A DNA stretch of 64,000 bases from Chitinophagaceae bacterium (GTDB taxonomy: Bacteria; Bacteroidota; Bacteroidia; Chitinophagales; Chitinophagaceae): NCBI GenBank assembly GCA_025923075.1, contig JAICGN010000007.1:1-64000 (forward strand), written 5' to 3'. Below are positions 27,701-53,060 of this stretch, piece by piece. A program made the translations under genes and the position numbers. The notes beneath the pieces were generated by a model, which was not told the DNA's origin, ran no database searches, and was given only the letters and a program-made list of their open reading frames with translations. Position 1 is the stretch's first letter; every line of letters begins with the position of its first letter.

Positions 27701-28228
27701 ATTACCAACACGACATACATAAATATCAAGCAGCCCATCATTATTTATGTCAACAACAGAAACTCCAGTGCTCCATCCGCCATCCTGCGGTATCCTTGCC
27801 TCCTTTGTCACATCTTTGAATTTCAATCCGCTTTCATTCAAGTAGATTTTATTCTCTCCCTGGTTCGATGAAAAGAAAATATCACTTAGTCCATCATTAT
27901 TAAAATCTCCGACACCAACTCCTGCACCATTGTAGAAATACATGTACTTAAACATATTGAATTGCGCTGTGGGAGTAAGCTTGTTTACGAAATCAATTCC
28001 TGTTGCTTTGCTATCCAGGGCTTCAAATATGGCCGGCGGCTCATTCTTCTTATCATTGCATGATAAAAGAGTAATGAACGGCATAATGTTCATAACAATA
28101 AGGACTATGTACCAAACATGGGCCCTACTATTAAGCTTATGTTGCGACGCCCCTTTCAAAGTTTTTTTCAACTTTGAGCAATTGCGCCGCAGTTTACGCT
28201 GAGCTTGTCGAAGTGTCGCACTGTTCAT
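24746..28228 (-). CDS. FG-GAP/VCBS and ASPIC-UnbV repeat lipoprotein (CRTAC1 type), second of two
   Basis: Up to 1160 residues. Many D-x-D-x-D-G calcium-type repeats of the FG-GAP/VCBS fold (GVGVGDFNNDGLSDIFFSSN, AFFDYDLDGDLDFFLMN) form beta-propellers, with an ASPIC/UnbV module around RGFQGSMEVPLHIGL-HKTNVDSILIVWPD. Lipobox LLSC lies at ~56, preceded by YIVLIVMNIMPFIT. The first 45 residues are encoded by a dispersed repeat (28121-28245), so the real start may instead be the ATG at 28093. A GC-rich palindrome inserts SPAGGRKGEV in frame (27402-27432). Such proteins often stand beside SusCD pairs; function unknown. Confidence 0.8.
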   Translation of the reverse strand: MNSATLRQAQRKLRRNCSKLKKTLKGASQHKLNSRAHVWYIVLIVMNIMPFITLLSCNDKKNEPPAIFEALDSKATGIDFVNKLTPTAQFNMFKYMYFYNGAGVGVGDFNNDGLSDIFFSSNQGENKIYLNESGLKFKDVTKEARIPQDGGWSTGVSVVDINNDGLLDIYVCRVGNYETLKSKNQFLICQGKDANGVPYYEDEAGKLGLDFSGFGTQAAFFDYDLDGDLDFFLMNHSLRFDGTFNERSSYLNTFDTLAADYLFRNESPAGGRKGEVKFVDVSATAGINRSIIGYGLGLSVADINLDGYPDLYIGNDFHENDYLYINQKNGTFLDTLEGTIMHTSQFSMGTDVADITNDGFPEIISIDMMPEDPYILKRSLGENEYNLFHFKIRHGYHPQFARNTLQLNRRNGLFTEIGFYSGVYATDWSWAALWTDFDNDGWKDLFISNGIPKRLNDMDYINFVSNVELQEKIRTNRVDENDMALIQKFPQIKLTNKFYLNKGEAKFVDADSMIRNNPRTYSNGAAYADFDNDGDMDMVVNNVDEPALIYKNLSNDGTEKRSFLEFKLQGPPLNINGIGTKAIVFTKNVQRTPFGEMRTYEKFPVRGFQGSMEVPLHIGLHKTNVDSILIVWPDNTYEKLAPVKDSIVTVAYKSGLAKFDYKVFQQNISNALVPAEDITSQTGLSYLHEENSFNEFDREPLIPFMTSREGPALAVGDINNDGLEDVFVGSSKFKKPGLFIQQSSGKFLRSDQPALDSDSTYEDVDAVFVDVNNDSFNDLVIASGGNEYYGNSEFLLPRVYLNDGKENLQKLTDAFDKRIMLTASCVAAYDFSGDGYVDLFIAGRAVPNEYGTIPRSYLLKNDGKGKFNDVTDQYSKELSMAGFVKHSFWSDLDKDGDSDLVLSLEWDGIAAFINQKNRLEKKYLTDKKGWWNFTLPVDVDGDGDLDLIGGNLGLNNRLQASGQHPVRLYYNDYDDNGKKEQVLTYYLGGKEIPFATKDELVRQIPELKKKYLYAEDFAKATLNDIFKTEKLNSASLLSANYFSNIMLINNGNWNFSLKELPWEAQLTPYRDATIADLNNDSRPDILLAGNFYHNSIQMGEYDGDYGTVLMNKGEGKFSCESLNGYMIKGEVRHIRKITIDRKEALLVARNNDSLKVIRLH
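27402..27432 (-). repeat. GC-rich palindromic element inside an FG-GAP gene
   Basis: CCTCCCCC...GGGGG with partial inverted symmetry, read in frame as ESPAGGRKGEV on the minus strand. The matching place in the paralogue next door has only DGGYFND-type residues. Related to the elements in paaB and paaC. Confidence 0.55.
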
Positions 28229-28245
28229 CTTTCTGTAATTCTATT
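28121..28245 (-). repeat. Dispersed ~130-bp element, copy A
   Basis: On the minus strand it runs from AATAGAATT through CGACACTTCGACAAGCT, CGCAATTGCTCAA and GGCGTCGCAAC to AAGCTTAATAGTAG. The same order of blocks occurs at 51935-52066 on the plus strand. It lies between the two FG-GAP genes, includes the stop of the first, and reads openly into the second. Confidence 0.7.
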
Positions 28246-31200
28246 GTGCTATGTCGTGGGTTGACAGTTTGTACATTATCAGATCATCATTATTTCTCAA
28301 AAACAAAATATAATTTTCTTTTATCCCATTGATCCATGCAATGTCTCTAACCATTCCCGTCACTGAAAGTCCTGTGTGTGCAGCAGGCATTACTGCAAAC
28401 TGTTTATTTCCTTTATTCTCCAATACGATACCATAGTTAGCATCCAATCTCCCGAATTGCGGAAGACATTCAGTAATATTTCCGCCAACTACAATATCCA
28501 GTTTTCCATCTTTAGTAATGTCTTTACAAAGTATGGCGTTTACACTCGATAATTGCACTTCGAGAGGCAACTGTTGTATGGTAAATTTTCCACCCCCCTC
28601 GTTCCATGCTATTACGCTGCTGCTATAATTAAATGTTTTTACCGTCGCCGATTGTATTAATTCCGGTTTAAAAAGAGTCTGTATTGTTTTTTTTGCATAG
28701 TCGCGATGACGCAGGTTTTCCTTTTTCAATGATGGCATCGCGTCCGTAAATTCTCTTTTCAGGAATACCGGCACGTCCTTTCCATCTATAGTTCTTGAAA
28801 AAATCTTATCCGGTAATGTGTTCATATCAAAATCATTCATCCAAAGTTTAACCGGATGCTGTTCATCAGGGTGGAGATAAAAATTATTCCCATAATTACC
28901 CAATACAAGATCATTATCACCATCACCATCAAGATCAGCGGCTTTTGCCGTTTGCCACCAGCCAAACAGATTACTCATGTTGGTGGTCAGTTCATTCAGC
29001 TTTCCATTACTAAATGAAAATATTCTCGGGGTCATCCACTCGCCAACTATTACCAGTTCATTTTTTTTATCTCCTGTTATATCAGTCCATATAGCACTTG
29101 TTACCATTCCAATAGTACCAAGTGCAGAATTTAGTTGTTTTGTTACATCCTTGAAATGGCCCTTACCATCATTTTCATAAATATAACTGTCAGGGTCAAC
29201 GCCGTAATTGTAGGATAAACTTCTGCCACCAACAAAAAGATCAAGATCACCGTCCCCATCAAAATCGTCTGCAGCTGCCACTGCTATATTTGAATTCGTT
29301 GCGCCAAAGCCAGCCTCATCCTTTTTATAGTTTCCACGGCCGTCATTTTTATAAAGCCTGTGTTTCAAATAGGGATTTCGCGGCGGCAGATTATTTCCTC
29401 CTGATCCTACAAACAGATCTTCATCGCCATCTTTATCACAATCAAAAAATAAAACAGCGATGTCTTCAAATTCTTTGTCAGCTTCAAAAGTTTTTTGATT
29501 GCTTTTTATAAATCCATTTTTAGTTTGAAAATATAATTGTCCGGCCTGTCCTTTGGCGCCACCAATAAAAATATCCTGCCAACCATCTTTGTTTACGTCA
29601 CCAGGGACAGCTTTAGGTCCTTCTCTTGACAACATCACAGGAACATTTCTCTCATTATAATAATCCACAAATGATGTATCCTCAATATGTTTCTCAAACT
29701 GATGGTTTACTGGTTCTGTCAGAAAAGGAAGAATTGATGTTGGTCCTACCGTTGGCATCGAACTATCCGGTTGTCGTATAAAATGATGCTTATCCACCGC
29801 GGGATCTTTCAGATAAGATTCTGATCTATCAGGCCAAATAATTTTTACGAAAGTTGGGTTTTTATTTCCCAGACCGATCACAATTCTATAATCCGTGCTT
29901 GATTGGAATCCGCGACTCGGAATGAGTTCTCTTGTTAAAGTTGCTGAATCGATTTGCACTTCTATCTTGGCACCGATCGCAAACTTATTGGGTGCTTTGC
30001 CTTCCAATTGGAATGAGATAAAGTGATTGCCATTGATCTCCCGACTATTATTCTTATATACAAAACATGGCATGTTCACGTTATTCACTATTAAATCAAG
30101 ATCACCATCATTATCAAGATCACCATAAGCAGCGCCATTGGAAAATGAAGGCTGGGTAAATCCCCAATTGATGCCTTCATCAGAAAATTTAAGATGGCCA
30201 TTATTTCGAAATGCTTTATTCAATATCGGAACAGAAGGCATACTGTCAACGATCTGCTGCACTTCTTTTTTCTCACCTGTCATTACCATTTCCTGGATTA
30301 TATCGTTGGCAAAAAAGTCAATAAAATCCTGGTCAATAAGGTCTTTATAAATGCCATTACAAACATAGATATCATTCATCCCATCATTGTCAGCGTCAAA
30401 CATTAAGGCGCCCCAACTCCAATCGCTGGCGGCAACACCGCTGAAATAGGCGGTTTCAAGGAATTTTCCATTCCCATTATTTACCTGCAAAGTATTTTGC
30501 TGGAACTGATGATAGAATCCCGCCAATTCTTTTCGGCGATAAATGTCATACCCATCAAAGGAAGATGTTGATTTCAGCCGGTAATCGTCTGGAGGCAACA
30601 TATCCGTAGTAAAAATATCAGGATAACCATCATTGTTTATATCGGCAACATCGGCGCCCATGGAAGCAAGGCTTGTGTGCTCCATCCATTTCGGAAGTTC
30701 TTCTTTGAATGTTCCGTTTTGCTGATTGATATATAAATAATCTCTTTCAAAAAAATCGTTTGCGATATAGATATCAGGATAATGATCGCCATTGACATCT
30801 CCCACGGTTACGCCTAGCCCGAACCCAATCAAACTGCCATAAATATTTGCCTCTCTACTAATATCATTGAAGTATCCGCCATCATTTCGCAATAATTTAT
30901 CGCCGCCGCCTTTTACAAAATCTTCTACCGGCCAGTCTTCGGCGCGAAGCTCTCTTTTGTTTTCATAATTCAGTGTACTTACGGGGATAAAACTATTGTT
31001 CAGGATATAACAATCAAGATCACCATCAAGATCGTAATCAAAAAAAGCGGCGTGTGTGGTATAACCCTTTTCATCCAATCCGTATTCTTTTGCTTTTTCT
31101 GTAAATGTGAGGTCATGATTATTAATAAAAAGCTTGTTGCCATCCCGTTTCTTCCATTTATCTATACCCGCATTGCAAACATAAACATCAAGCCAGCCAT

Positions 31201-31570
31201 CGCCATTAATATCCACCATCACTACACCGGTATTCCATTTTCCTTTTTCTTCAATCCCCGCTTTTATTGAAACATCTTCAAACTTAAGATTTCCTTTGTT
31301 CAAATAAAGCTTATTCGCACCCATATTGGAAGTCATAAACACATCCGGTAAACTGTCGTTATTAATATCCCCGATGGCGACGCCACCACCATTATAAAAA
31401 TTCCGGTAAATGAAAATATTGAAGTCTTTAGTGTTTTCAACTTTATTAATAAAATCGATGCCCGTGGTTTCTTCAAGGGTAAAAAGACTTGGCTGTTTTT
31501 TTTCTTCGTTACAAGAAAAAAAATTAGTTACCGCAATAAAAAAACAAAAGATAACAACACATCTTTTCAT
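28241..31570 (-). CDS. FG-GAP/VCBS and ASPIC-UnbV repeat lipoprotein (CRTAC1 type), first of two
   Basis: 1109 residues. Lipobox FFSC (about Cys20). Series of VCBS/FG-GAP repeats (GGVAIGDINNDSLPDVFMTSN, AFFDYDLDGDLDCYILNN, AYGDLDNDGDLDLIVNN) and the ASPIC/UnbV block RELIPSRGFQSSTDYRIVIGLG-KIIWPD. It is a clear paralogue of the following gene, 12 bp away. A terminator separates it from susD, so the pair seems to have its own transcript. Calcium-binding propellers at the cell surface suggest binding of a large ligand; the substrate is unknown. Confidence 0.85.
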   Translation of the reverse strand: MKRCVVIFCFFIAVTNFFSCNEEKKQPSLFTLEETTGIDFINKVENTKDFNIFIYRNFYNGGGVAIGDINNDSLPDVFMTSNMGANKLYLNKGNLKFEDVSIKAGIEEKGKWNTGVVMVDINGDGWLDVYVCNAGIDKWKKRDGNKLFINNHDLTFTEKAKEYGLDEKGYTTHAAFFDYDLDGDLDCYILNNSFIPVSTLNYENKRELRAEDWPVEDFVKGGGDKLLRNDGGYFNDISREANIYGSLIGFGLGVTVGDVNGDHYPDIYIANDFFERDYLYINQQNGTFKEELPKWMEHTSLASMGADVADINNDGYPDIFTTDMLPPDDYRLKSTSSFDGYDIYRRKELAGFYHQFQQNTLQVNNGNGKFLETAYFSGVAASDWSWGALMFDADNDGMNDIYVCNGIYKDLIDQDFIDFFANDIIQEMVMTGEKKEVQQIVDSMPSVPILNKAFRNNGHLKFSDEGINWGFTQPSFSNGAAYGDLDNDGDLDLIVNNVNMPCFVYKNNSREINGNHFISFQLEGKAPNKFAIGAKIEVQIDSATLTRELIPSRGFQSSTDYRIVIGLGNKNPTFVKIIWPDRSESYLKDPAVDKHHFIRQPDSSMPTVGPTSILPFLTEPVNHQFEKHIEDTSFVDYYNERNVPVMLSREGPKAVPGDVNKDGWQDIFIGGAKGQAGQLYFQTKNGFIKSNQKTFEADKEFEDIAVLFFDCDKDGDEDLFVGSGGNNLPPRNPYLKHRLYKNDGRGNYKKDEAGFGATNSNIAVAAADDFDGDGDLDLFVGGRSLSYNYGVDPDSYIYENDGKGHFKDVTKQLNSALGTIGMVTSAIWTDITGDKKNELVIVGEWMTPRIFSFSNGKLNELTTNMSNLFGWWQTAKAADLDGDGDNDLVLGNYGNNFYLHPDEQHPVKLWMNDFDMNTLPDKIFSRTIDGKDVPVFLKREFTDAMPSLKKENLRHRDYAKKTIQTLFKPELIQSATVKTFNYSSSVIAWNEGGGKFTIQQLPLEVQLSSVNAILCKDITKDGKLDIVVGGNITECLPQFGRLDANYGIVLENKGNKQFAVMPAAHTGLSVTGMVRDIAWINGIKENYILFLRNNDDLIMYKLSTHDIAQ

Positions 31571-50101: not shown

Positions 50102-51811
50102 ATGCTTTTGAGAAAGGTATTCCTTATCCTGCTTCTAACTCCATTGTACTCATTGACACAGAACAGGTATGATGTTGTGATAGATGAAATAATGGCTGAC
50201 CCTGCACCGCAAATAAGCCTGCCATCAAATGAATGGATCGAATTAAAAAATGTTTCTCCCAACCCTGTCAACCTTCAAAACTGGAGGATCGGTGATGCAG
50301 CGGGCCAAAGCGGGCCAATGCCCAATTTTATTTTACAACCGGATAGTTTCGTAATTGTCTGTACCGGCAGCGCTCTTACTGCCATGCAGGTTTATGGAAG
50401 AGTGATTTCAGTAACGAGTTTTCCGTCGCTTGATAATGATGGTGACCAACTGTTCTTAAAAAGCAATACCGGCCTGACCATCCATGCAGTAACTTATTCT
50501 TTGTCATGGTATCAAAATGCAGTAAAGAGCGATGGCGGATGGACGTTGGAAATGATCGATACAAAAAGTCCCTGTGCTGGTATCAGCAATTGGAAAGCCA
50601 GTACAGATACCAGGGGTGGAACACCGGGAATAAAGAATTCTGTTGATGCAGTTAATAATGATCAGTCAAAGCCATCTGTAAGAAATGCTTATGCACTTGA
50701 TACCCTTAACCTCATCATCATTTTTGATGAACCAATGGATAGTTTAAAAGGGGCAACGTTCGCTAATTATGTCATTGATGGCGGAATAGACATTCAATCT
50801 GCTGCTTCAGTTTCTCCCCTGTTTGATAAAGTACAGCTGAGACTGACAACAGCGATGCAGGTTAATACAGTTTATACTATTACGGTGAACAATCTTACAG
50901 ATTGCAAGAACAATTCTATCAGTGCAAAAAACAAGGCAAAGATTGGCTTGCCTGTTGAAGCAGCAACAACTGAAATGGTGATCAATGAGATCTTATTTAA
51001 CCCGAAAAGCGGCCGTAGCGATTATGTGGAATTTTATAACCGAAGCAATAGAATTTTTGACGCCAATAAATTGTATATCGCCAACCGCAACAGCAGCGGA
51101 GTTGTCAGCTCAGCAAAGCTGCTGTCAACCAGTCCCTATTATATATTCCCGGGTGATTATGTTGTCGTAACAGAAGACGCAATTAATCTTTCATTGGACT
51201 ATTTGGTTCAGAACCCCGATGCCGTTTTTGAGCTTTCCTCATTGCCCTCTTTTCCCGATGATGAGGGACATGTTGTCATTTTAAACTTCCAGGGAGCCGT
51301 AGTTGATGAAGTACAATACCAAGATGACTGGCAATTTGGGCTACTTGCTAATCCTGATGGCGTAGCGTTAGAAAGAATTGATCCTGATGGACCTTCACAG
51401 GAAGCAGGTAACTGGCACTCTGCAGCATCAACTGCAGGATATGGAACCCCAACTTATAAAAATTCCCAGTATAAATCATTACAGACAATCAGTGCAACTG
51501 TCGAAGTCATTCCAAAAGTTTTTTCCCCTGACAATGATGGCCGTGATGATGTGGCGACTATTCAATACAAAACCACTGAGCCGGGCTATATTGCCAATAT
51601 TACTGTTTATGATGCCAATGGAAGACCGGTTCGTAACCTGGTAAAAAATGGAACGCTTGGATTACAGGGATATTGGACCTGGGATGGCCTGGATGACAAA
51701 CGGCTGAAATTGGCCGTAGGTACATATATTTTATTTACAGAGATTTTTAACCTCGACGGTAAAAAAGAAATATTTAAGAATGTTGTCGTGCTTGCAAGGC
51801 CTCTTCAATAG
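50102..51811 (+). CDS. Secreted lamin-tail-domain protein with FlgD-like end
   Basis: 569 residues. Signal peptide ending SLTQ. First lamin tail domain (VIDEIMADPAPQISLPSNEWIELKNVS, ~25-150), an Ig-like SbsA-type domain (~190-285), second lamin tail domain (MVINEILFNPKSGRSDYVEFYNRSN, ~290-415), and a C-terminal FlgD-like Ig fold (VFSPDNDGRDDVATIQY, VYDANGRPVRNLVKNGTLGLQGYWTWDGLDD, ~470-565). Such proteins are extracellular scaffolds in Bacteroidota; the ligand is unknown. The gene is divergent from asd's leader. Confidence 0.88.
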   Translation: MLLRKVFLILLLTPLYSLTQNRYDVVIDEIMADPAPQISLPSNEWIELKNVSPNPVNLQNWRIGDAAGQSGPMPNFILQPDSFVIVCTGSALTAMQVYGRVISVTSFPSLDNDGDQLFLKSNTGLTIHAVTYSLSWYQNAVKSDGGWTLEMIDTKSPCAGISNWKASTDTRGGTPGIKNSVDAVNNDQSKPSVRNAYALDTLNLIIIFDEPMDSLKGATFANYVIDGGIDIQSAASVSPLFDKVQLRLTTAMQVNTVYTITVNNLTDCKNNSISAKNKAKIGLPVEAATTEMVINEILFNPKSGRSDYVEFYNRSNRIFDANKLYIANRNSSGVVSSAKLLSTSPYYIFPGDYVVVTEDAINLSLDYLVQNPDAVFELSSLPSFPDDEGHVVILNFQGAVVDEVQYQDDWQFGLLANPDGVALERIDPDGPSQEAGNWHSAASTAGYGTPTYKNSQYKSLQTISATVEVIPKVFSPDNDGRDDVATIQYKTTEPGYIANITVYDANGRPVRNLVKNGTLGLQGYWTWDGLDDKRLKLAVGTYILFTEIFNLDGKKEIFKNVVVLARPLQ

Positions 51812-51934: not shown

Positions 51935-52066
51935 AATAGAATTGGCGTAGTAGTGGAGTGTGACCTTTCGACAAGCTTCCCGGTTTAATCGGGACGACGC
52001 AATAGCTCAATGGTGAAAAGAACGATAAACGGAGCGTCGCAACTGAAGCTTAATAGCAGTACTGCC
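51935..52066 (+). repeat. Dispersed ~130-bp element, copy B
   Basis: Blocks AATAGAATT, GTGTGACC, TTTCGACAAGCTTCCCGG, CGACGCAATAGCTCAA, GGAGCGTCGCAACTGAAGCT and TTAATAGCAGTACTGCC run in the same order as in 28121-28245 (minus strand). The inner TCCCG...CGGGA makes a hairpin (51978-51994). No ORF of note. Confidence 0.7.
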
Positions 52067-52103
52067 GATTGGCAGATACTTATGATTATTAAAAGGGGAG
52101 ATA

Positions 52104-52136: not shown

Positions 52137-53060
52137 CTATCCCAGCTCAATATCAAACTTTGTCAACTCTTTGAATGCATGGATCCGGTTATCAATATCT
52201 TCCCTTTTTAATTCTCTCAGTCTAGTGGTCCCGAATTTTTCAACACAAAAACTTGCCATAGCACTGCCAACAATAATTGCAGATTTCATGTTTTCAAAAC
52301 TGATATCTTTTGTTTTGGCAATATGGCCAATGAAGCCCCCGGCAAATGTATCTCCTGCACCCGTTGGATCAAACACTACCTCCAGCGGAAGAGCCGGCGC
52401 AAAGAAAACTTTATCCTCATTGAACAACAAAGCACCGTGTTCTCCTTTTTTTATGATCAAATATTTTGGTCCCATTTCCATAATCGCTTTTGCGGCGCTT
52501 ACCAACGAATAGTGGCTACTGAGTTGTCTTGCTTCTGCATCGTTCACAAGTAACACGTCTATTTTTTTCAGGACCTTTTCTAGATCAGCCATGGCCGTAT
52601 CCATCCAAAAATTCATCGTATCCAATATCACCAGCTTTGGTTTGTTTTTTAACTGGCTTATCACTGATAATTGAACCGATGGAAGAAGGTTGCCAAGCAT
52701 AAGAAATTCACAATCCTGGTAGCTGTCCGGCACTACCGGTTTGAAATTCCCCAATACATTAAGCTGTGTTTCCAATGTATCCCTCGTATTCATATCAAGA
52801 TGATAGCGTCCACTCCAGAAAAATGATTTTTCGTTTTCTTTCACCTGCACGCCTTCCATAGAAACACCACGGGCTTCGAGTATTTTCATTTCTTCCCTTG
52901 GAAAGTCACCTCCGACAACAGATATCTGTTTTACAGGACGGGTAAAATTGGAAGCACTCCAGGCTATATAGGTCGCCGCTCCGCCAACGATCTTATCACT
53001 TTTACCAAATGGAGTTTCTATTGCATCAAAGGCCATTGAGCCTACTACTATAAGGGACAT
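52137..53060 (-). CDS. PfkB family sugar kinase
   Basis: 307 residues. IVVGSMAFDAIETPFG and DKIVGGAATYIAWSASNF near the start, and DPTGAGDTFAGGFIGHIA with the catalytic Asp near the end, are the PfkB/ribokinase marks. YLIIKKGEHGALLF and LVNDAEARQLS are also typical. Substrate (sugar or nucleoside) cannot be told from the sequence. It stands alone, divergent from the TetR gene, with a repeat at each end. Confidence 0.88.
   Translation of the reverse strand: MSLIVVGSMAFDAIETPFGKSDKIVGGAATYIAWSASNFTRPVKQISVVGGDFPREEMKILEARGVSMEGVQVKENEKSFFWSGRYHLDMNTRDTLETQLNVLGNFKPVVPDSYQDCEFLMLGNLLPSVQLSVISQLKNKPKLVILDTMNFWMDTAMADLEKVLKKIDVLLVNDAEARQLSSHYSLVSAAKAIMEMGPKYLIIKKGEHGALLFNEDKVFFAPALPLEVVFDPTGAGDTFAGGFIGHIAKTKDISFENMKSAIIVGSAMASFCVEKFGTTRLRELKREDIDNRIHAFKELTKFDIELG

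Follow-up and report, generated by a model that had tools for sequence, protein, structure and literature searches.

The window analysed here, a stretch of 64,000 nucleotides from a Chitinophagaceae bacterium, carries two consecutive genes for FG-GAP/UnbV_ASPIC proteins and, further along, a gene with an LTD/CHU_C domain followed by a PfkB kinase gene, with one copy of a repeat at each of these two places (Table 1). The initial annotation had described a dispersed element of about 130 bp, based on blocks that follow one another in the same order on the minus strand at 28245-28121 and on the plus strand at 51935-52066; these blocks are present in both copies and are real, not a product of chance. 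With blastn, positions 28260-28100 of the minus strand matched, in the own genome (4.98 Mb in 274 contigs), themselves, the second window copy (75% identity, E=1.8e-11) and, among the matches listed, 13 additional places.

Table 1. Genes and repeat parts at the two sites of the window
Feature	Position	Strand	Remarks
FG-GAP/UnbV_ASPIC lipoprotein ORF, 1160 aa	24746..28228	-	Pfam FG-GAP_3 1.1e-62, UnbV_ASPIC 1.2e-10
Full repeat unit, site 1	28099..28183	-	inner end 28183, outer end 28099; R2 E=1.8e-15
5' extension of site 1	28184..28245	-	half unit (AATAGAATTACAG...GTGCGAC) and insert
REP-like insert, site 1	28198-28213	-	CTTCGACAAGCTCAGC; motif search
Upstream FG-GAP/UnbV_ASPIC gene	28241..31570	-	Pfam FG-GAP_3 4.5e-75
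LTD/CHU_C-domain gene, flank of site 2	50102-51811		Pfam
5' extension of site 2	51935..52000	+	half unit and CTTCGACAAGCT-type insert
Full repeat unit, site 2	52001..52086	+	between converging genes; R2 E=3.0e-18
PfkB kinase gene, flank of site 2	52137-53060		Pfam

Alignment of the copies in the window's genome with those of its relatives places the unit proper at about 85 bp (the full units of Table 1), with the consensus AATTGCTGAATAGnGAACAGAACGnTGAACGGAGCGTCGCAACAGAAGCTnAATAGTAGTACTnAAGCTGGnnACATAAAAAT. This unit makes up the 3' two thirds of the element as first delimited, and the length of about 130 bp has to be given up, as the extra 60 bp or so on the 5' side are half of a second unit with a REP-like insert. 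A profile of 89 positions built from 64 units (R2) was used to search for further copies. In the information profile across 128 copies, the inner edge is sharp, the outer end is rich in A and T and the core, GCG[A/T]CGCAAC, is nearly invariant, while the copies overall are old and diverged (mean column identity 73%). In one sub-family GAGTGCGACGCAAC replaces CGGAGCGTCGCAAC. Covariation of core column 5 with columns 9-12 was considered as base pairing and rejected, as it reflects two sub-families, GGAGCGTCGCAAC and GAGTGCGACGCAAC.

The form of about 130 bp is a genus-level composite consisting of half a unit, the insert (CTTCGACAAGCTCAGG) and a full unit. A sequence-only profile of this composite built from eight copies (R1) matches site 1 at 28126-28243 (E=1.8e-27) and site 2 at 51937-52058 (E=8.4e-25), with at least 69 matches in the own genome. 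With up to one mismatch tolerated, the 16-mer CTTCGACAAGCTCAGG itself occurs 17 times in this genome among the matches listed; judged against the profile matches, about half of these occurrences belong to composites. Other short palindromes also interrupt the unit, namely CTGCCGGCAG-type ones at loci L022 and L042 and GTGCCGAAGGCACTCCTTCGGA at L048.

The unit is indeed dispersed, as had been claimed. In the own genome, R2 found at least 143 matches, at least 107 of them at E<=1e-3, and in the complete genome G010 (5.08 Mb) at least 150 copies, the best 150 candidates all having E<5e-8. Among 61 relatives, the family was found in 27 of the 37 sampled Chitinophagaceae genomes and in none of the 24 from other families of the order, and in an even, class-wide sample of 295 genomes only two outside Chitinophagaceae gave a match. 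One of these two matches is a doublet on a metagenome-assembled genome (MAG) and, because this MAG is 71% complete, may stem from transfer or mis-binning. An exact 21-base pattern searched against 84,980 species genomes matched Flavisolibacter, Paraflavisolibacter, Niastella, Lacibacter, Flavihumibacter, Puia, Segetibacter, Terrimonas, Pinibacter and Sediminibacterium, in addition to unnamed Chitinophagaceae/Bacteroidetes MAGs. Within the genus of the window, four species hold at least 72 copies and two species with small genomes hold none, so copy number changes fast.

The units are intergenic, their outer end lying near a gene boundary (median about 32-35 bp). Tandem, divergent and convergent gene arrangements around them (103/17/14) match the background (271/53/46), and relative to tandem genes orientation is neutral (46 units on the same strand, 57 on the opposite one), all of these figures being approximate because the gene calls are simple ORF calls. 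Of 192 units, 39 have their midpoint within an ORF of 100 aa or more, although many such ORFs may be spurious. A unit either stands alone or belongs to an inverted doublet, in which the two inner ends are turned towards each other with 37-200 bp between them. For the best 150 units of G010, all ten pairs closer than 200 bp are of this kind, against an expectation of 0.88 pairs in whatever orientation, and so are all 17 full doublets counted across the loci. Within a doublet, the two arms resemble each other no more than randomly chosen units do (similarity 0.638 versus 0.641), and there is thus no sign of recently copied doublets. Doublet spacers and unit borders (the spacer at L206, and L053) also hold another palindromic repeat (TTTGAACCACAGAGACACAGAG...CTCTGTGGTTCAAA).

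Inner hairpins, which had been listed as a feature of the element and had led to the suggestion of a structured RNA, did not survive folding. Short inverted blocks do occur in both window copies, and copy 2 with its flanks folds at z -3.1, as a cis-acting riboswitch, leader or terminator might. Against such an RNA, however, copy 1 folds no better than its shuffles (z -1.2), neither do single units (n=60, mean z -0.10), the consensus fold of 64 units has 0 conserved pairs, an Rfam search of the repeat gave no match and orientation shows no preference with regard to genes. Only the inverted doublets form a long hairpin (n=14, mean z -4.7), as inverted arms drawn from a single family should. The structured-RNA reading is already contradicted by these data and we regard it as extremely improbable. 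Hardly less improbable is a family of very small genes in which the opposite strand would encode a hydrophobic peptide (..LLLLSFRCDAPFxVLFxIQQ..). The frame is open in many copies and the exchanges are hydrophobic, but the core does not vary at third codon positions, the information content is not periodic, and many copies have a stop just ahead of the peptide and no start codon; this candidate was rejected on the codon-position profile.

At site 1, the repeat is predicted to take part in coding. As had been noted, the first FG-GAP gene has its stop codon (AATAG, 28241) within the first bases of the composite, and a frame is open from the element into the second gene. Translation of this copy into the N-terminus of the FG-GAP lipoprotein, where the in-frame part of the unit reads KGASQHKLNS, is supported, likewise in the related species G002 and G003. 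The unit is common to these three species of the genus and, because it occupies the same place and has the shared variant CAACATAAGCTTAAT, predates their split, while the 5' part of the composite is confined to the window's species, the orthologous sites of G002 and G003 lacking it. In these two species, the downstream lipoprotein has no usable start codon other than an ATG within the unit, giving the predicted N-termini MMNGASQHKLN...LTFFLLSC and MNGALQHKLN...WLFFIFSC, respectively. In the window's species, the reading frame runs uninterrupted across the unit (..KGASQHKLNSRAHVWYIVLIVMNIMPFITLLSC), and the ATG that follows the unit (28093) would yield an unusually short signal peptide devoid of positive charge.

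Such N-terminal donation is predicted at four gene loci unrelated to one another, among which both orientations of the unit occur. Besides the FG-GAP lipoprotein, these are L069 in G010 (MNRTYKSATQQKFNSGNGAWFIKKFAVFVAVVFSISNISAQ), L150 in G002 with a reversed unit (MKHRCDAPFRF...ALLYVLFAIQQHAAAQ) and L201 in a Bacteroidetes MAG, also with a reversed unit (MSPAKVLLSSSVATLRSGFSALVIFFGVFFF...CLAQ); at these last three, in-frame starts exist upstream of the unit too. Comparison of sequences supports the view that some units lying just upstream of genes have been exapted, probably serving as start codon and N-terminal part of a signal peptide. There is a precedent in the translated RU repeats of enterobacteria (PMC2759123). 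More speculatively, and in our view rather doubtfully, the repeat could act as a mobile source of translation starts and of the n-regions of signal peptides, from which new exported proteins and lipoproteins are made repeatedly in Chitinophagaceae; since it is readable on both strands near its ends and adjoins genes, its spread might create new exported proteins. The lipoprotein genes would represent clear cases in which a dispersed repeat has come to supply a conserved lipoprotein with its start and signal-peptide region, and gene-start annotation in Chitinophagaceae should therefore be checked against the repeat.

Site 2 allows a comparison with empty sites. The LTD/CHU_C and PfkB genes are adjacent in four congeners, and the intergenic space of 325 bp in the window compares with about 10-60 bp in G003, G004 and G005, where the inserted DNA is therefore absent. 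The exact ends of the insertion are unreadable owing to divergence of what is left of the intergenic DNA, and loss of the unit in these three species could also have produced the difference. In G002 (G002:C666, L274), an unrelated small gene of about 130 aa with a signal-peptide-like start replaces the unit, and tandem repeats (CTTGAATCTTGTTTCTTGAATC) lie nearby.

In one alternative, the unit does not copy itself. A selected chromosomal site, bound by a putative Chitinophagaceae-specific protein (nucleoid, gyrase or repair), would be kept by its function; the BIMEs of E. coli are an example of repeats with nucleoid, gyrase or repair function. A nearly invariant core (positions 0-8) within a far more variable unit would fit such a site, as would the neutral orientation to the gene strand and the persistence of units at orthologous sites, with identities of 88% for G000/G001, 78% for G000/G002 and 69% for G000/G018 that are biased because both members of a pair had to be detected. 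However, two congeners and other family members hold zero copies, a conserved length of 85 bp with sharp ends is long for a single protein site, and copies occur on phages. We consider this explanation unlikely.

The phage copies, found on IMG/VR viral contigs, are often inverted pairs around one small gene. Phages L248 and L255 are 99% identical over 112 bp of left flank and unit and share the right flank in part; the genes between their inverted units differ and one of them adjoins a tRNA-like stretch, which may represent gene replacement bounded by repeats. Integron attC sites were considered and rejected, the phage clusters being mostly inverted pairs, not cassette arrays in one orientation. 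Empty phage sites were sought and only distant relatives were found. A second putative vehicle is a segment that carries a unit together with an ssb-like gene and recurs across Flavihumibacter, Lacibacter and others with the unit 82-98% identical and similar flanks (L213, L240, L211, L225, L208, L220 and L228). The ssb-like reading frame and the identity across genera suggest that this segment is an integrative conjugative element.

These findings raise the alternative that horizontal DNA, i.e. phages and conjugative elements, together with homologous recombination or gene conversion, spread the repeat with no transposition enzyme involved. The phage units, nearly identical together with their immediate flanks beside different neighbouring genes, and the near-identical ssb-bearing segments speak for it. 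On the other hand, most copies are single and sit in unrelated gene neighbourhoods chromosome-wide, and the bias towards inverted doublets would need a separate cause, which makes this explanation quite unlikely. With moderate confidence, we instead read the family as a Chitinophagaceae-specific, high-copy, non-autonomous intergenic repeat, similar to REPINs and RU/ERIC repeats, that is mobilised in trans and has occasionally been exapted as a signal-peptide start.

In the literature on dispersed repeats of Chitinophagaceae and Bacteroidetes outside subscription journals, nothing describing the present family was found, and the present data provide a large family of environmental bacteria with an abundant family of dispersed repeats. 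The closest descriptions are those of RU-1 (127 bp), RU-2 and RU-3, group-restricted intergenic repeats of enterobacteria of about 100-170 bp with many copies, whose open frames become gene parts, including signal-peptide regions (PMC2759123). The present repeat resembles these in small size, intergenic location, high copy number, group restriction and signal-peptide contribution, and like RU/ERIC-type repeats of around 100 bp it varies in presence and absence between relatives; however, its single unit has neither MITE-like terminal inverted repeats nor structure, it resides in another host family, and the likeness drawn here is one of description. REPs and REPINs with their RAYT are likewise high-copy and intergenic, and occur as singles and inverted dimers with spacers of 20-100 bp, the dimers forming a large hairpin (PMC3116915, PMC3733652). 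With these the present family shares the dimer habit with a short spacer, and with other REP-type repeats the lack of a known transposase, but its unit is about 85 bp instead of 20-40 bp and non-palindromic, no GTAG/CGTC end tag was seen in it, and no RAYT is flanked by it. From MITEs it departs in that inverted repeats are found only in doublets, the arms of which are not homogenised, and in the absence of target-site duplications at single units. Rickettsia palindromic elements (RPE), handled together with CGTC-tagged repeats, are palindromic and lie within ORFs (PMC3733652); both families are dispersed and found in protein-coding genes, whereas here most copies lie between genes, and entry into a gene is at its N-terminus.

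While the repeat family itself was observed directly, the mobilising mechanism is what we infer. The element had been proposed to be a small mobile one, and the many copies and the insertion polymorphism between congeners agree with this; mobility nevertheless stays at the level of interpretation because single units have no terminal inverted repeat, no target-site duplication (no signal at 178 single units) and no dedicated transposase that could be found. A lone 11-bp direct repeat surrounds a phage cassette (L245). A host or mobile-element enzyme would copy the unit in trans, slowly, and as no target duplications were seen, this enzyme would more likely be of the single-strand, HUH type than a cut-and-paste DDE transposase. 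Phages and the conjugative-element-like segment would then carry copies between genera, and some units upstream of genes would be taken over as start codon and signal-peptide N-terminus. A REPIN-like architecture with neither palindromic REP nor RAYT would make for a concrete search for a new mobilising enzyme.

RAYT/Y1 transposases were examined as mobilisers and rejected, since their own gene ends carry other REPs (GCGAAGTCTCCAGACTTCGC, GTTGGTCTCCAGACCAACG) and their presence does not track copy number. Some Y1/RAYT-like genes lie 0.8-2 kb from units, none being directly flanked by one; G010 has at least 150 copies yet only two IS200-like Y1 genes, and G009 and G020 have Y1 genes and zero units. 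As observations on these genes in their own right, Y1/RAYT-like genes of Bacteroidota (L100, L110, L113, L114 and L108) encode 180-190 aa with an NPVRAG motif and are flanked by genome-specific REPs. In the own genome, one Y1/RAYT-like gene (L103, 242-592) is disrupted close to a CTGCCGGCAGGC-type palindrome, and an IS200-like gene of the same genome (L011) is accompanied by other palindromes (GGGCTAAAGCCC, AGGCCTTTAGGCCT) at 1430-1470 and 1970-2000, which belong to another REP family.
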